DNA of 64,000 bases. Origin: Mammaliicoccus vitulinus. GTDB lineage: Bacteria > Bacillota > Bacilli > Staphylococcales > Staphylococcaceae. Shown piece after piece: positions 29,970 through 55,727 of this stretch. A program made the translations under genes and the position numbers. Location of the stretch: contig NZ_CP118974.1 of NCBI RefSeq assembly GCF_029024305.1, positions 2,511,069 through 2,575,068 of the forward strand, in the 5' to 3' direction. The notes beneath the pieces were generated by a model. It saw only the letters and a program-made list of their open reading frames with translations, was not told where the DNA came from and ran no database searches. Position 1 is the first letter of the stretch. Every line of letters starts with the position of its first letter.

Positions 29970-34704
<4,735 letters not shown>

Positions 34705-36625: not shown

Positions 36626-41360
<4,735 letters not shown>

Positions 41361-50189: not shown

Positions 50190-50220
50190 TGAACTCACTC
50201 CCCTATATTTATTTAACTGA

Positions 50221-50249
50221 ATTACAACTTGTATATACAAGTATGTAAA
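50221..50249 (-). promoter_or_regulatory. Promoter of treP-treC-treR
   Basis: Minus strand: TTTACA (50244-50249), 17-base spacer, TGTAAT (50221-50226). The spacer consists almost entirely of the TreR palindrome. Confidence 0.78.
50227..50242. promoter_or_regulatory. TreR operator
   Basis: Perfect 16-bp palindrome ACTTGTATATACAAGT lying between -35 and -10. Its core TTGTATATACAA is of the type described as the tre operator in B. subtilis, so repression by steric block is expected. Confidence 0.85.
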
Positions 50250-50257
50250 GGCTTACA
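50244..50257. promoter_or_regulatory. Catabolite-response element (CcpA site)
   Basis: TGTAAAGGCTTACA is a 14-bp palindrome matching the cre consensus TGWAANCGNTNWCA at all but one position. It overlaps the -35 box of treP, so it would repress trehalose use when glucose is present. Confidence 0.6.
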
Positions 50258-50308
50258 ATTAATATTACATTTATAATGTAGTATGATTATATAAAGGAGG
50301 TTTTATAT

Positions 50309-51055
50309 ATGTCTTTTTTAACTCATGAATTCATAGATCACGAAGAGGTTTCAGTCGAATTCGCTAATGAAAGTTCTACGATTTTTACAAACCATCATCA
50401 CGAAAAAATATTTGAATCCGCAAGTTTAATTAAATTGCCGATTATGATTTATATTTTTGACCATACAACCCAAGAAGAGCGACAAGCGCAAATTAAACTA
50501 TCCAATATAGTTGGTGGTAGTGGCGTATTGCAAAAAATGAACATTGAACATTTAAGTATTAAAGATTTAATCTACCTCATGATTGTTGTATCTGATAATA
50601 CGGCTACAAATACTTTAATTCATTATTTTGGCCTTCAACATATCAATTTATTTATAAGTGAAACACTTCGCACTGAACATACCGAACTCAATCGCTTTAT
50701 GATGGATGAACATGCCATTCTTGAAGGTAAACAAAACATTACGACAGCACAAGACATGATCACAATACTTCGCTATATATCACAACACGAAGACAAGAAA
50801 GAAATGATGGACATTATGTATAATCAACATTTAAACGACAAAGTTTCAATTTATAAATCTTTCTATGAAGACACACTTTCTTTTTATTCAAAAACTGGTG
50901 AATATGGCAATGTTGTAAATGATGTGGGCATCATCCAACACGAACACGATTTATATTATTATTGCTTTTTATCCAACACAAATAAACCCAAAAAAGTGAT
51001 CGACTTCTCTCACCAATTTGGGTCATATATTATTCAATCTATTTTAAAAATCTGA
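50309..51055 (+). CDS. Cytoplasmic serine hydrolase with class A beta-lactamase fold
   Basis: 248-aa protein with the three penicilloyl-serine-transferase motifs: S39-L-I-K42, S95-D-N97 and K195-T-G197, plus GGSGVL (69-74), all in class A order and spacing. There is no signal peptide or lipobox, so it should stay in the cytoplasm. In the omega-loop region the sequence is E123-H-T-E126-L-N128, so the general-base Glu166 equivalent (ExxLN) is displaced or absent. It faces the ykfC gene convergently, with stop codons overlapping by 12 bases. AAAGGAGG lies 9 bases before the start. A peptidase or amidase acting on muropeptides is the inferred role. A true beta-lactamase is less likely. Confidence 0.85.
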   Translation: MSFLTHEFIDHEEVSVEFANESSTIFTNHHHEKIFESASLIKLPIMIYIFDHTTQEERQAQIKLSNIVGGSGVLQKMNIEHLSIKDLIYLMIVVSDNTATNTLIHYFGLQHINLFISETLRTEHTELNRFMMDEHAILEGKQNITTAQDMITILRYISQHEDKKEMMDIMYNQHLNDKVSIYKSFYEDTLSFYSKTGEYGNVVNDVGIIQHEHDLYYYCFLSNTNKPKKVIDFSHQFGSYIIQSILKI

Positions 51056-51952
51056 TAACCTAGCTGCTTTTGCGAGTATTTTTTGATAATAACTACCTGT
51101 TATTTTGACAATTTCAATACTTTTCGGGGTATGCGGTGCATGAATCATCATGTCTTCACCCATGTATATACCAACATGTGACAAGAAACCATTCTCTTCA
51201 GGCTTACTAAAAAATAGTAAGTCTCCCGGTTCGAAATTTTTTGACTCAATTGAAACATCTTTCATTGCTTCATATTGTTCATCCGCATCTCGAGGTATAT
51301 AGAAATTTTGACTTTTATACATTTGAAAACAAAGTCCCGAGCAATCATATCCATAACTAGACATGCCTCCCCATAGATAAGGTAAGTCTATAAAGCGTTT
51401 GGCATTTTCAATAACGCCTTGCATCGTTCCCGTTTGGAAATTGCCGTTTTCATCGCTAAATTCAACGTCGTTAGAATGGATTAAGCCTTTACCTTCAGGT
51501 GTGTCTACTTCAACATATTCATCTTCACCTTTCGTTACAGGCAACACCGTATTGAACGAAAGAATTTGCTTTGTAGTAAAATCTAAATTAAACAAAGTTG
51601 ATTTAGGTACTATAACACGTAATTTTTGATGTGCTTTATAATCTTTCATTTCGCCTAACTGACTAGAAGGTATAAAGCCAGGGTAACCCTTTGGATGTTG
51701 TTTCGAAGGTTGCTCTATACATAACACATGACTCCAGCCATCTTGTTCTTCTATTACTTCAACCATTTCTCCATACAATACTTGAGTATCTATTCTACTA
51801 TCTTCTGTAAACGACAACTTTTGTGCCAAATTCAGTTCTAGTAACCATCTTTGAATATCAGCTGGGTACATGATGCCATCTCTATCAATATCTCTAGCTT
51901 TATCAATATTTCTCCATATGGTCCCTACATTTACTCTACAATATTTCTTCAT
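51044..51952 (-). CDS. Gamma-D-glutamyl-L-diamino-acid endopeptidase, NlpC/P60 (YkfC-like)
   Basis: 302-aa enzyme with SH3-like domains (residues 1-165) followed by an NlpC/P60 catalytic domain. Catalytic Cys204 is in GYDCSGLC, His259 in LSHVGIYMG and His271 in MMIHAP. YkfC-type enzymes cut between D-Glu and the diamino acid of free murein peptides, releasing L-Ala-gamma-D-Glu. No signal peptide is evident, fitting cytoplasmic recycling. The start overlaps the epimerase gene by 4 bases (ATGA). Confidence 0.88.
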   Translation of the reverse strand: MKKYCRVNVGTIWRNIDKARDIDRDGIMYPADIQRWLLELNLAQKLSFTEDSRIDTQVLYGEMVEVIEEQDGWSHVLCIEQPSKQHPKGYPGFIPSSQLGEMKDYKAHQKLRVIVPKSTLFNLDFTTKQILSFNTVLPVTKGEDEYVEVDTPEGKGLIHSNDVEFSDENGNFQTGTMQGVIENAKRFIDLPYLWGGMSSYGYDCSGLCFQMYKSQNFYIPRDADEQYEAMKDVSIESKNFEPGDLLFFSKPEENGFLSHVGIYMGEDMMIHAPHTPKSIEIVKITGSYYQKILAKAARLSDF

Positions 51953-53049
51953 GTTCGCACCTTCTTGTATAAAGATTTTCTATCTATCCCTAAACCGAAT
52001 CCTTCTGAAGCCTTCACTTTAGCACCTTCATAAACGATACCACCTTCAACTTGCCTTTCAACCACCATTAATGGTGCATCAAAATCCACACGGCTTACTT
52101 GTTTAGCAGCTAAACTAAAATGTAAAGCAGCGGTTACAGAAACATGCGTCTCTATCATACATCCAACCATGCAAGATATACCTTCATCTTGAGCAATATC
52201 ATGTATTTTTAAAGCTTGATGTAGGCCACCAGTCTTCATCAACTTAATATTCCACAAATTATTTGCGCCTACTTCTACTAATCGACGCGCATCATAAGTG
52301 CTAAACAAACTTTCATCTACCATTAAAGGTATGTTAAATTGCTTTGTTAAAGCACCTAGAATAGTATATTCATAACGTCCAACAGGTTGTTCGATACTTT
52401 CAATTTTCAAGTCAGCTTCATCAAAATGTTTCAAGGCATGTCGCGCGCCTTTTTCATCCCAAGCTTGATTAGCGTCCGCGCTCAATATGACATCACTAGG
52501 CAACGAAGATCTCAATGCTTTCAGTCTACTTAAATCTGTTTCGACATTGTCTTTCCCCACTTTTATCTTCAAATGATTAAAACCTTCATCGACATATTTC
52601 AATCCATCTTCCACCATTTCAACAGCTTCATTCAAACTGACCGTATAGCATGTCTCTAACGTTTTATTTCCCGGGTTATGATTGATGTACTTATATAAAG
52701 GCAATTCTGCTTCTTGAGATAATAAGTCATAAAGCGCTATATCTATTGCTGCTTTTGCACTTGTATTACCGACAATGACTTGCTGTACTTCGTCTAATAA
52801 CTTCACTGTTAAATGCTTATTAATTAATAATGGCTTAAATACTTCTTCAATTGCGGCTTCAATTCCACCTTTAGTATCACCTGTAATAACATATGTAGGT
52901 ACAGCTTCGCCAACACCTATAACATCATCATAATTTGTTTCGATAAAAACATATATACTTTCTATTACTTCTACTGTTCTTAAAGCTGTTTTGAATGGTT
53001 TCTTCAAAGGTGTTCCATATCTATAGTATTTAATATCTGTTATAAACAT
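51949..53049 (-). CDS. L-Ala-D/L-Glu epimerase (enolase superfamily, YkfB-like)
   Basis: 366-aa dipeptide epimerase. Active-site residues of the muconate-lactonising subgroup are visible: K161-x-K163, metal ligands D192, E220 and D245, and K269. The D322-F-D324 motif binds the dipeptide amino group and is diagnostic of Ala-Glu epimerases. It converts L-Ala-D-Glu to L-Ala-L-Glu so that a normal dipeptidase can degrade it. Placed 12 bases after the carboxypeptidase gene. Confidence 0.9.
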   Translation of the reverse strand: MFITDIKYYRYGTPLKKPFKTALRTVEVIESIYVFIETNYDDVIGVGEAVPTYVITGDTKGGIEAAIEEVFKPLLINKHLTVKLLDEVQQVIVGNTSAKAAIDIALYDLLSQEAELPLYKYINHNPGNKTLETCYTVSLNEAVEMVEDGLKYVDEGFNHLKIKVGKDNVETDLSRLKALRSSLPSDVILSADANQAWDEKGARHALKHFDEADLKIESIEQPVGRYEYTILGALTKQFNIPLMVDESLFSTYDARRLVEVGANNLWNIKLMKTGGLHQALKIHDIAQDEGISCMVGCMIETHVSVTAALHFSLAAKQVSRVDFDAPLMVVERQVEGGIVYEGAKVKASEGFGLGIDRKSLYKKVRT

Positions 53050-53061
53050 ATAACTGCCCCT

Positions 53062-53985
53062 TTATTCTATATTTACACCTGATGCTATGTTCAGCACTTT
53101 TTGATCGACATCTAACGTTGCTTTTGTTCCAAATGGTATCGCAAAATGAGGCGTACAATGACCGATGTTCAAATCAAATGCTGCAGGTTTATTCAATCGT
53201 GTGATAAAAAAGTCTAAAACTTCTTTCATCGTTAACGATTTATTAGGATTTTTAGGTTTACTATTTGTAAATGGCCCAATGATAAATCCAATTGCATCAT
53301 CTAATTTCCCTGCCGACTTTAATTGTTGAAGGAAACCATCAATCTTATACGGCTCTTCTCCTATATCTTCAATAAATAGAATCTTTCCCTTTGTATCAAT
53401 TTCGTATGAAGTGCCTAAACTAGAAACTAAGAGCGATAAACATCCCCCAACTATTTCACCTTCAACTCGACCCGATACGAGAGGTTCGAAAGTTAATTGA
53501 TCAGTTGGATATGAAATATCTTTACCATCGAATAACTGTTCAAAGCTTTTTAAAGATATTTCATTATAAGCATCACCTATATCGGAAGCAATCATTGGTC
53601 CTTGATATGTAATCAATCCCGTTTGTTGTCTAATAGCGTTATGCAAACACGTTATGTCACTATAACCCCAAATGATTTTAGGATGTTTCTTAACAAGCTC
53701 ATAATCAATGCGTTCTACAATCCGAGGTGTCCCATATCCTCCACATGCACATATGATACCTTTAACTTCATCATCCCTTAACATGTCATGTAAACTTTGT
53801 AATCTCTCTTCGTCCGTTCCTGCTAAATGACCATAAATTTGATCAATATTATTCGCCAACTTAAATTTAACTTGATATCGCGCTTCTAAACGTTCTAAAC
53901 CATTCTTTAAATGTTGTTGATTAGGCGGGCTCGCTAATGCTACTACACCTAATACATCTCCCCGTTTTAATCCCTTTGCTTTCAT
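53062..53985 (-). CDS. LD-carboxypeptidase, S66 family (YkfA-like)
   Basis: 307-aa enzyme with the nucleophile Ser109 in IWGYSDIT and the catalytic His276 in NIGHCTPHFAIPFG. S66 enzymes remove the terminal D-Ala from cytoplasmic murein tetrapeptides. First gene of the three-gene recycling operon, with a promoter just upstream. Its ribosome site AAAGG is modest and 10 bases from the ATG. Confidence 0.9.
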   Translation of the reverse strand: MKAKGLKRGDVLGVVALASPPNQQHLKNGLERLEARYQVKFKLANNIDQIYGHLAGTDEERLQSLHDMLRDDEVKGIICACGGYGTPRIVERIDYELVKKHPKIIWGYSDITCLHNAIRQQTGLITYQGPMIASDIGDAYNEISLKSFEQLFDGKDISYPTDQLTFEPLVSGRVEGEIVGGCLSLLVSSLGTSYEIDTKGKILFIEDIGEEPYKIDGFLQQLKSAGKLDDAIGFIIGPFTNSKPKNPNKSLTMKEVLDFFITRLNKPAAFDLNIGHCTPHFAIPFGTKATLDVDQKVLNIASGVNIE

Positions 53986-54016: not shown

Positions 54017-54047
54017 ATTATAGCAAAGTTATAAAACATTTGTACAA
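54017..54047 (-). promoter_or_regulatory. Possible promoter of the murein-peptide recycling operon
   Basis: Minus strand: TTGTAC, 19-base spacer, TATAAT, about 30 bases upstream of the LD-carboxypeptidase start. The spacing is wide. Confidence 0.45.
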
Positions 54048-54049
54048 AA

Positions 54050-54086
54050 CAAAAAGCGCTACCTACAAATGTAGGTAGCGCTTTTC
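54050..54086 (-). terminator. Terminator after tRNA-Ser
   Basis: Perfect 12-bp stem AGCGCTACCTAC / GTAGGTAGCGCT with an AAAT loop, and U-tracts on both sides. Confidence 0.88.
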
Positions 54087-54116: not shown

Positions 54117-54209
54117 TGGCGGAGGAAGAGGGATTCGAACCCCCGCGAGCCGTTAAGCCCCTGTCGGTTTTCAAGACCGATCCCTTCAGCCGAACTTGGG
54201 TATTCCTCC
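54117..54209 (-). tRNA. tRNA-Ser (anticodon UGA)
   Basis: 93 nt including the encoded CCA. Acceptor GGAGGAA pairs with TTCCTCC, the long variable arm is present, the anticodon loop CTTGAAA gives TGA, and the T-loop is GGTTCGAATCC. Own promoter and terminator. Confidence 0.96.
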
Positions 54210-54269: not shown

Positions 54270-55727
54270 TTAAATTGTAATTTTCTTCTTTAAGGATTCA
54301 TCTACAGCTTTTGCAACTGCACGACCCTCTTTAATAGCCCAAACGACTAAACTTTGCCCTTTTCTTGCATCACCAGCGACAAATATTTTATCTTGATTTG
54401 TTCTAAAATCTTTTTCGTTTGCTACGATTTTATTTCGTTCAGTATTCAAATTGAATGAATGAGGCACTAAATGCTCAGTTCCTTCGAATCCAATTGATAA
54501 TAGAACTAAATCTGCTGGCCAATGACGTTCAGTTCCTTCTACAATAACCATACCATCTTCAGTTTCTTCTAACACTTGTGTGTAAAGACCTCGAATATTA
54601 CCATTTTCATCAACATCATAACGCATCGTTTGAATACCGTAAGCTCTTGGTTCGAATCCGAACTTTTCGCGATACTCTTTATGTGCATAGTCTAATTTGA
54701 AAATTGGCATTGGTAATGGCCAAGAAGTATTTTGTTCTATTTTATCAGTTAATCTTACATATTTATTAAATTGGACAACTGATTTACAGTCATCTCTCAA
54801 TGCTGTTGCTACGCAGTCAGCACCTGTATCACCCGCACCTATTACAATCACATTTTTGCCTTTAGCTGTTATTGTCGGTTCATTAATTTCTCCCATTTGT
54901 AATTGCGTTTGTTCTGTTAAATAATCCATTGCAAAATGAATACCAAAACTCATACGTCCTTCTAATGGTAAATCTCGTCCTTTTTGTGAGCCTGTACAAA
55001 CAATAATGGCATCATATTGTTCATCTAGCTCTTCTTTCGTGATGTCTTTCCCCACATTAACATCTGTTATAAAGACGATACCTGCTTCTTCCATTAATTT
55101 AACACGTCGCTCAATCACTTCTTTGTCTAATTTCATACTTGGTATTCCATACATGAGCAAGCCACCTGGACGATGGTTTCGCTCATATATCGTCACATTG
55201 TAACCTAATAAATTTAATTCTTCGGCTGCTGTTAATCCTGCTGGACCACTACCGATGATGGCTACTTTTTCATCTAATCGGTGTTCTGGAAACTTCGGTT
55301 TAACAAGTCCCATATCATATGCTTCATCTATAATTGTACGTTCAATTCCTTTAATGGCTACTGACTCATTATTAATTGCTAACACACATGACGATTCACA
55401 CGGCGCCGGACAGACGCGACCAGTAAATTCAGGGAAGTTATTTGTTTCAGATAGTCTTTCATATGCCTCTTTGTAATCTTTTCGATACACTAGATCGTTC
55501 CACTCTGGTATATAGTTACCAATCGGACAACCTATTGTATCTCTACCGAATGATGAGCCTGTCTGACAAAATGGTGTTCCACAGTCCATACAACGCGCAC
55601 CTTGTGTTGCAGCATCTTCTGTTGTAAAACGTTGTTGGAATGGTTCATATCCCTTAATTCTATCTTTTAATGGCAACTCATCAAGTTGTTGCTTAGGATA
55701 CTTCATAAATCCTTTAAATTCACCCAT
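54270..55727 (-). CDS. gltD: Glutamate synthase small subunit
   Basis: 485-aa NADPH-side subunit. The N-terminal 4Fe-4S cysteines are in CMDCGTPFCQ and further Cys in GRVCPAPCESSCV. The FAD site is IIGSGPAGLTAAEE and the NADPH site VIGAGDTGADCVATA. It transfers electrons to GltB for the GOGAT reaction. It is 15 bases after gltB in the same operon. Confidence 0.96.
   Translation of the reverse strand: MGEFKGFMKYPKQQLDELPLKDRIKGYEPFQQRFTTEDAATQGARCMDCGTPFCQTGSSFGRDTIGCPIGNYIPEWNDLVYRKDYKEAYERLSETNNFPEFTGRVCPAPCESSCVLAINNESVAIKGIERTIIDEAYDMGLVKPKFPEHRLDEKVAIIGSGPAGLTAAEELNLLGYNVTIYERNHRPGGLLMYGIPSMKLDKEVIERRVKLMEEAGIVFITDVNVGKDITKEELDEQYDAIIVCTGSQKGRDLPLEGRMSFGIHFAMDYLTEQTQLQMGEINEPTITAKGKNVIVIGAGDTGADCVATALRDDCKSVVQFNKYVRLTDKIEQNTSWPLPMPIFKLDYAHKEYREKFGFEPRAYGIQTMRYDVDENGNIRGLYTQVLEETEDGMVIVEGTERHWPADLVLLSIGFEGTEHLVPHSFNLNTERNKIVANEKDFRTNQDKIFVAGDARKGQSLVVWAIKEGRAVAKAVDESLKKKITI

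Follow-up and report, generated by a model that had tools for sequence, protein, structure and literature searches.

The window analysed here, a stretch of 64,000 nucleotides from Mammaliicoccus vitulinus, contains at positions 50309 to 53985 four genes that we read as a cytoplasmic module for the catabolism of murein peptides: three homologues of ykfABC from the dpp-ykf operon of Bacillus, joined by the gene of a fourth enzyme, a serine hydrolase of the class A β-lactamase fold that is called SerH in this text. On the sequence comparisons described below, this reading is given a probability of roughly 0.6. Three of the genes lie on the reverse strand and are, in the order of their transcription, ldcA (53062..53985), coding for an LdcA/YkfA-like LD-carboxypeptidase of peptidase family S66 (both S66 domains in Pfam), aee (51949..53049), coding for an L-Ala-D/L-Glu epimerase of the enolase superfamily that is homologous to YkfB (Pfam MR_MLE), and ykfC (51044..51952), coding for a YkfC-like endopeptidase without a signal peptide (Pfam NLPC_P60 and SH3_YKFC_2nd). 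The gene of SerH, a predicted cytoplasmic protein of 248 amino acids (Pfam Beta-lactamase2), lies on the forward strand (50309..51055) and runs towards the end of ykfC.

The open reading frames, Pfam domains and motifs agree with the original prediction, which had placed four genes here, with active-site residues visible in the three of the operon, and had described the convergent overlap of SerH with the end of ykfC (12 nucleotides, tail to tail). The gene order it proposed, ykfA-C-B, has to be corrected, given that the transcription order ldcA-aee-ykfC (51044-53985, reverse strand) matches ykfA-B-C. The reverse-strand genes are tightly spaced, with an overlap of 4 nucleotides between ykfC and aee and a gap of 12 between aee and ldcA. 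Among relatives, the spacing between SerH and ykfC ranges from the 12-nucleotide overlap to a gap of approximately 20 nucleotides and adjacency alone is constant; the notion that the overlap itself is meaningful was dropped because it is not conserved.

The YkfC protein aligns over nearly its full length with that of B. cereus (BcYkfC, 3h41), and its catalytic residues Cys204, His259 and His271 correspond to Cys238, His291 and His303 of that enzyme. Two residues of BcYkfC, Asp256 and Tyr118 of the SH3b domain, define a YkfC subfamily that is specific for a free N-terminal L-Ala (PMC2954226); they are found here as Asp222 and Tyr90 and are invariant in 10 aligned family members, and Tyr226, Trp228, Asp237, Ser239 and Arg255 are retained as well. 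By its catalytic residues and by those that determine L-Ala specificity, the protein is a member of this subfamily, and activity on L-Ala-γ-D-Glu-Lys/diaminopimelate (DAP) peptides is predicted. The epimerase finds its best PDB match in the L-Ala-D/L-Glu epimerases 1jpm/1tkk (E 1e-84 over 359 residues), and the aligned motifs LKIKVG, DANQ, EQP, DES, KLMK and DFDAPLM include the catalytic Lys pair, the metal ligands and the C-terminal DxD; on this homology and these residues it is classed as a YkfB protein. LdcA has the N and C domains of S66 and the Ser-Glu-His residues (GxSD, Glu, His) of an ordinary S66 enzyme. Its score does not reach the strict cut-off that NCBIfam sets for the PRK11253 equivalog, and its identity as LdcA is favoured over a MccF-type enzyme, which also belongs to S66, because of its linkage to ykfBC.

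The closest known system is dppABCDE-ykfABCD of B. subtilis, with which the module has in common the order ldcA-aee-ykfC, homologous enzymes and the conserved S1/S2 residues of YkfC. It differs in the additional convergent SerH, in its site between tRNA-Ser and treP, in a host murein that is probably amidated on D-isoglutamate, and in that no transporter gene adjoins the module and no homologue of the M55 protein DppA was found in the genome. The module had been called complete, a description that holds for the enzymes acting on peptides inside the cell but does not extend to an adjacent transporter or to DppA. Elsewhere in the same genome (G000 C1 1940470-1947478), four genes for dppE-type oligopeptide-binding proteins stand in a row, and they are candidate murein-peptide importers.

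Linkage of SerH to ykf genes and history of the site

The membership of SerH in the pathway, already suggested in the original prediction, is strongly supported by its linkage to ykf genes both in the Staphylococcaceae and in the operons of distant Bacilli. In a sample of 398 genomes of the class, in which linkage was defined as a SerH gene less than 12 kb from ykfC, nearness to ykfC rises with similarity to SerH: it was found for 4/4 matches above 200 bits, 7/9 between 160 and 200 bits, 3/12 between 140 and 160 bits and, among the matches listed that were counted, 3/37 below 140 bits. By our estimate, chance alone would bring the two genes this close in ~0.6% of cases in a 4-Mb genome. The best 80 named SerH loci have YkfC within 12 kb in 46 cases, and YkfC or the epimerase in 51. 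The alignment used to pick these loci by similarity had linked proteins in it from the start, however, so that the figure of 46/80 is biased and the sample of 398 genomes is the fairer one.

In many Bacillaceae the usual operon is dppA-dppB-dppC-ATPase-dppE-ldcA-aee-ykfC-ATPase-SerH, with SerH as the terminal gene, as in Neobacillus, Metabacillus, Cytobacillus and Rossellomorea, and in Priestia without ldcA. This position at the end of complete dppA-dppBCDE-ldcA-aee-ykfC-ykfD operons is conserved in distant Bacillaceae and unrelated genera. Other arrangements also occur, such as LdcA-SerH-permeases-SBP (solute-binding protein)-AEE-YkfC in Sporolactobacillus, AEE-YkfC-SerH (L137), ABC-LdcA-SerH-NlpC (L146 and L147) and a ykf cluster of yet another order in Paenisporosarcina. 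These differing orders, together with that of the Staphylococcaceae, point to a repeated association of SerH with ykf genes. On a tree of 100 SerH proteins the ykf-linked label changes 4 times, compared with 33.4 times when it is shuffled. Taken together, these observations make it very probable that SerH belongs to the pathway.

Two groups of SerH relatives have other neighbours. In loci L067-L071, part of a Salinicoccaceae-like family (f4), genes for DppE-like peptide-binding proteins and for a GntR-type regulator are found close to a SerH homologue, and ykf genes are missing. In L142, L143 and L144, SerH-like genes belong to a second conserved cluster with a membrane protein of ~437 amino acids (cl14) and a regulator-like protein (cl15), and that of L144 also holds an epimerase-like enolase; this cluster may encode a further D-amino-acid pathway that employs a hydrolase of this family. 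Searches of the open-licence literature on SerH in the dpp-ykf operon, on peptidoglycan recycling in Mammaliicoccus and on murein-peptide recycling in staphylococci found no report of SerH in such an operon.

Within the family, 108 Staphylococcaceae genomes of five genera were compared, and the best matches came from Mammaliicoccus itself. The co-occurrence expected from the original prediction is exact: the 13 genomes with SerH are also the 13 with ykfC, the two genes being convergent neighbours in each of them, and the other 95 have neither. The 13 genomes are related, and taken by itself this co-occurrence amounts to one or a few events. The module is found in 8/8 Mammaliicoccus, 3/9 Macrococcoides, 1/6 Macrococcus and the single genome of a fourth genus (1/1), and in 0/84 genomes of the fifth, which is probably Staphylococcus, judging from the number of genomes and the order gltD-tRNA-Ser-treP. 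LdcA is part of the module in Mammaliicoccus only; the genomes of the other carriers yielded no close homologue at another place, and three Macrococcus without the module have weak partial matches. Modules without LdcA fit the published finding that YkfC cleaves tetra- and pentapeptides directly.

In the carriers of all four genera the module occupies the same site: where the fetched stretch includes both flanks, these are tRNA-Ser and treP. In most relatives that lack it, tRNA-Ser is near treP (in a few of these loci the tRNA falls outside the fetched stretch), and several genomes of the probable Staphylococcus also have gltD ahead of the tRNA. The original prediction had the module and tRNA-Ser lying together between gltBD and treP; the protein genes are indeed the variable part, but the tRNA belongs to the backbone, and an inserted segment carrying tRNA-Ser is ruled out by its adjoining treP in module-less relatives. 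The YkfC and epimerase proteins of the family each form a single clade (support 100), and the SerH proteins form one with support 81. The simplest reading of these sequences would be a single ancestral arrival at the tRNA-Ser/treP site, with the module later lost repeatedly. A plasmid origin of SerH was rejected: close SerH proteins were not found on plasmids, where all matches have less than 60% identity.

The tRNA-Ser(tga) gene (54117..54209, reverse strand) is thus a conserved flank outside the module, upstream of ldcA; the start of gltD is at 54270, and treP is found on the opposite side. Upstream of ldcA there is also a candidate operon promoter (54017..54046, reverse strand), TGTACA-18-TATAAT with TG before the second hexamer, which matches the consensus, although matches of this type are not commoner in the region than in shuffled sequence; it is preceded by a strong hairpin terminator (54051-54086). 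The divergent region between treP and SerH contains a perfect palindrome that resembles a TreR operator (TTGTATATACAA, 50229..50240), with no second copy in the window even when one mismatch is allowed, and identical in 8/8 Mammaliicoccus; beside it lies (window 50190-50308) a near-palindrome that resembles a cre site (ATGTAAAGGCTTACAA) and is nearly identical in the same 8/8. The palindrome is probably a backbone feature of treP, and, judged by position, SerH and trehalose uptake may have common control. Far from the module, a set of open reading frames is repeated 6656 bases apart (window 30110-30986 and 36766-37642; starts 30110/36766, 30438/37094 and 33209/39865), probably as two tandem rRNA operons.

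Fold and active-site residues of SerH

The AlphaFold model of SerH (predicted local distance difference test score 91.2) has the full class A fold, beginning at approximately residue 14, which leaves no space for a signal peptide, as had been claimed. The motifs S39-x-x-K42, S95-D-N97 and K195-T-G197 are all present. In the 43 aligned rows of ykf-linked proteins, Ser39, Lys42, Ser95, Asp96, Asn97, Lys195 and Gly197 are invariant and residue 196 is Thr, or Ser in three of them. Arg129 and Asn143 are invariant too and, by count from the motif, occupy the Ω-loop positions of Arg164 and Asp179. The position of the class A Glu166 is taken by Met131, and this column contains Met in 37/43 and Leu in 6/43. 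SerH therefore resembles class A β-lactamases such as TEM, PenP and BlaZ in its fold, in three of the four catalytic motifs and in the Ω-loop arginine, but it lacks the Glu166 general base and the signal peptide, and it scores 43 bits against the NCBIfam class A model, whose cut-off is 200. Efficient β-lactamase activity of SerH is unlikely, since Met or Leu stands in place of the deacylating Glu166.

The solved structures nearest to the model are 4hes (Z 32.3), 4ewf (Z 30.2) and PBP-A (Z 29.3). The first, with 27% identity, is a “Beta-lactamase class A-like protein” of Veillonella parvula that has the motif R-x-M-M-D in common with SerH; the title of its entry names no function. PBP-A of Thermosynechococcus elongatus, a cyanobacterial DD-peptidase close to class A β-lactamases, combines the class A fold and the motifs SxxK, SDN and KTG with the loss of Glu166, and SerH presents the same combination. 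By the profile alignment from which the residue equivalences were taken, Met131 faces Leu158 of PBP-A, the site of the L158E mutant entries, and both proteins have an acidic residue after KTG. They differ in the Ω-loop, shorter in PBP-A (a 5-residue alignment gap), and in location, given that the known substrates of PBP-A are wall peptides and SerH has no export signal. For PBP-A, activity both as a DD-carboxypeptidase and as a DD-endopeptidase is proven, and its preference for D-isoglutamine peptides has been attributed to Glu96 (PMC11189452). By count along the alignment this residue stands opposite Gly70, and SerH need not, therefore, have the same preference.

Proposed role of SerH in murein-peptide catabolism

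We propose that stem peptides of the form L-Ala-γ-D-Glu-L-Lys-D-Ala(-D-Ala) would enter the cell through a general oligopeptide system, and that SerH, acting as a serine DD-carboxypeptidase of the PBP-A type, would take the terminal D-Ala off pentapeptides or off Lys-D-Ala-D-Ala released by YkfC. LdcA would cut off the next D-Ala, YkfC would free L-Lys from L-Ala-γ-D-Glu, and the epimerase would convert L-Ala-D-Glu into L-Ala-L-Glu, which ordinary dipeptidases would then split. B. subtilis YkfC cleaves L-Lys tri-, tetra- and pentapeptides (PMC2954226), and D-Ala ends therefore occur among the substrates of YkfC; the shift in substrate range that had been thought possible from the Lys of staphylococcal murein is for the same reason not needed. 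The activity assigned to SerH is proposed because PBP-A, its closest characterised structural relative, is a DD-peptidase, and by this analogy the predicted cytoplasmic DD-carboxypeptidase has about an even chance of being correct.

Several observations weigh against this proposal. Since YkfC accepts pentapeptides, a DD-carboxypeptidase is not strictly required, and the published ykf operon of B. subtilis is described as ykfABCD only, with no SerH (PMC3305447). Homologues of SerH without nearby ykf genes exist in the Salinicoccaceae-like family, Fictibacillus, Pontibacillus and Peribacillus frigoritolerans, so that the fold family is not restricted to this pathway. Ordinary class A β-lactamases follow PBP-A closely (Z 28-29) and the identity with PBP-A is 23%, which means that the fold alone does not choose the function. 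Finally, the residue directly after KTG is acidic in 38/43 ykf-linked rows and might fit a cationic group better than a carboxylate.

The last point bears on the strongest alternative, in which SerH would be another murein-peptide hydrolase of the same pathway: an L-Lys(or meso-DAP)-D-Ala dipeptidase, a D-aminopeptidase or an L-Ala-L-Glu dipeptidase. YkfC, by cutting tetra- and pentapeptides directly, would leave Lys-D-Ala(-D-Ala), modules of the Macrococcus type retain SerH without LdcA or a close LdcA elsewhere in the genome, and the module encodes no L-Ala-L-Glu dipeptidase. Against it stands PBP-A, which as the nearest characterised relative without Glu166 is a DD-carboxy/endopeptidase. 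Such a hydrolase, for instance one acting on the Lys-D-Ala(-D-Ala) that YkfC releases, is a possible but less favoured reading, about half as likely as the DD-carboxypeptidase.

Much less probable is a role for SerH as a β-lactamase or as a sensor of β-lactams in the cytoplasm, placed beside ykf by chance. Murein fragments and β-lactam induction are linked through BlaI. The class A fold would suit this role, and in an induction assay of B. subtilis BlaP the ykfA and ykfB mutants produced less β-lactamase (PMC3305447), but no bla/mec regulator was found among the genes flanking the module, the protein carries no signal peptide, and Met or Leu replaces Glu166 in all 43 aligned ykf-linked proteins. 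As a β-lactamase, SerH is rejected on the missing Glu166 and a score so far below the cut-off.

It is equally improbable that SerH removes the amide of D-isoglutamine and thereby admits amidated staphylococcal peptides to the pathway. MurT, the partner of GatD in D-isoglutamate amidation, is present in the M. vitulinus genome and in 7/7 tested SerH-positive relatives of the family, and the D-isoglutamate of the host is therefore probably amidated. YkfC, for its part, hydrogen-bonds the free α-carboxyl of D-Glu (PMC2954226), and the substrate of the epimerase is L-Ala-D-Glu. MurT is, however, absent from 10/10 tested genomes outside the family that have SerH with ykf, which makes the linkage independent of amidation, and on this ground SerH as the deamidase was discarded. 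This leaves three options for these cocci: enzymes that accept the amide, the existence of a deamidase, or use of the module on peptides that come from other bacteria. A further obstacle is the Gly bridge attached to the Lys side chain; Lys itself is no barrier. The least likely reading of all, that SerH is an unrelated neighbour whose overlap is an accident of genome compaction by treP, would account for the co-occurrence in Staphylococcaceae, where a single arrival inherited jointly would yield the same pattern and YkfC and the epimerase each form one clade, but it is already contradicted by the linkage across the class, where SerH shares an operon or cluster with ykf genes in distant families and in other gene orders, and by the clustering of the ykf-linked label on its tree.

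The locus is thus a real, conserved four-gene module in which three genes code for well-known enzymes and SerH is an uncharacterised yet regular partner. The view of peptide recycling in Gram-positive bacteria derives mostly from B. subtilis, while many other Bacilli have SerH as the regular last gene of the operon. If the proposed role is correct, SerH would add to the muropeptide pathway of Gram-positive bacteria a step that is missing from the B. subtilis operon as described, and would be a recycling enzyme built on a class A scaffold without Glu166, possibly an intracellular relative or forerunner of the resistance enzymes. A tentative proposal, somewhat less probable than the activity itself, is that SerH is the first member of a family of cytoplasmic serine DD-peptidases whose task is the catabolism of imported murein peptides. 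Should SerH trim D-Ala-D-Ala ends, every chemical step leading from the pentapeptide to free amino acids would be accounted for, and class A-fold proteins that are filed as β-lactamases would acquire a cellular role. Murein fragments act as signals in β-lactam-inducible systems, and an enzyme that sets the fragment pool could matter for induction. The Staphylococcaceae offer a clean natural contrast, with the module in all eight Mammaliicoccus, in some Macrococcus and Macrococcoides, and in none of the 84 probable Staphylococcus genomes.

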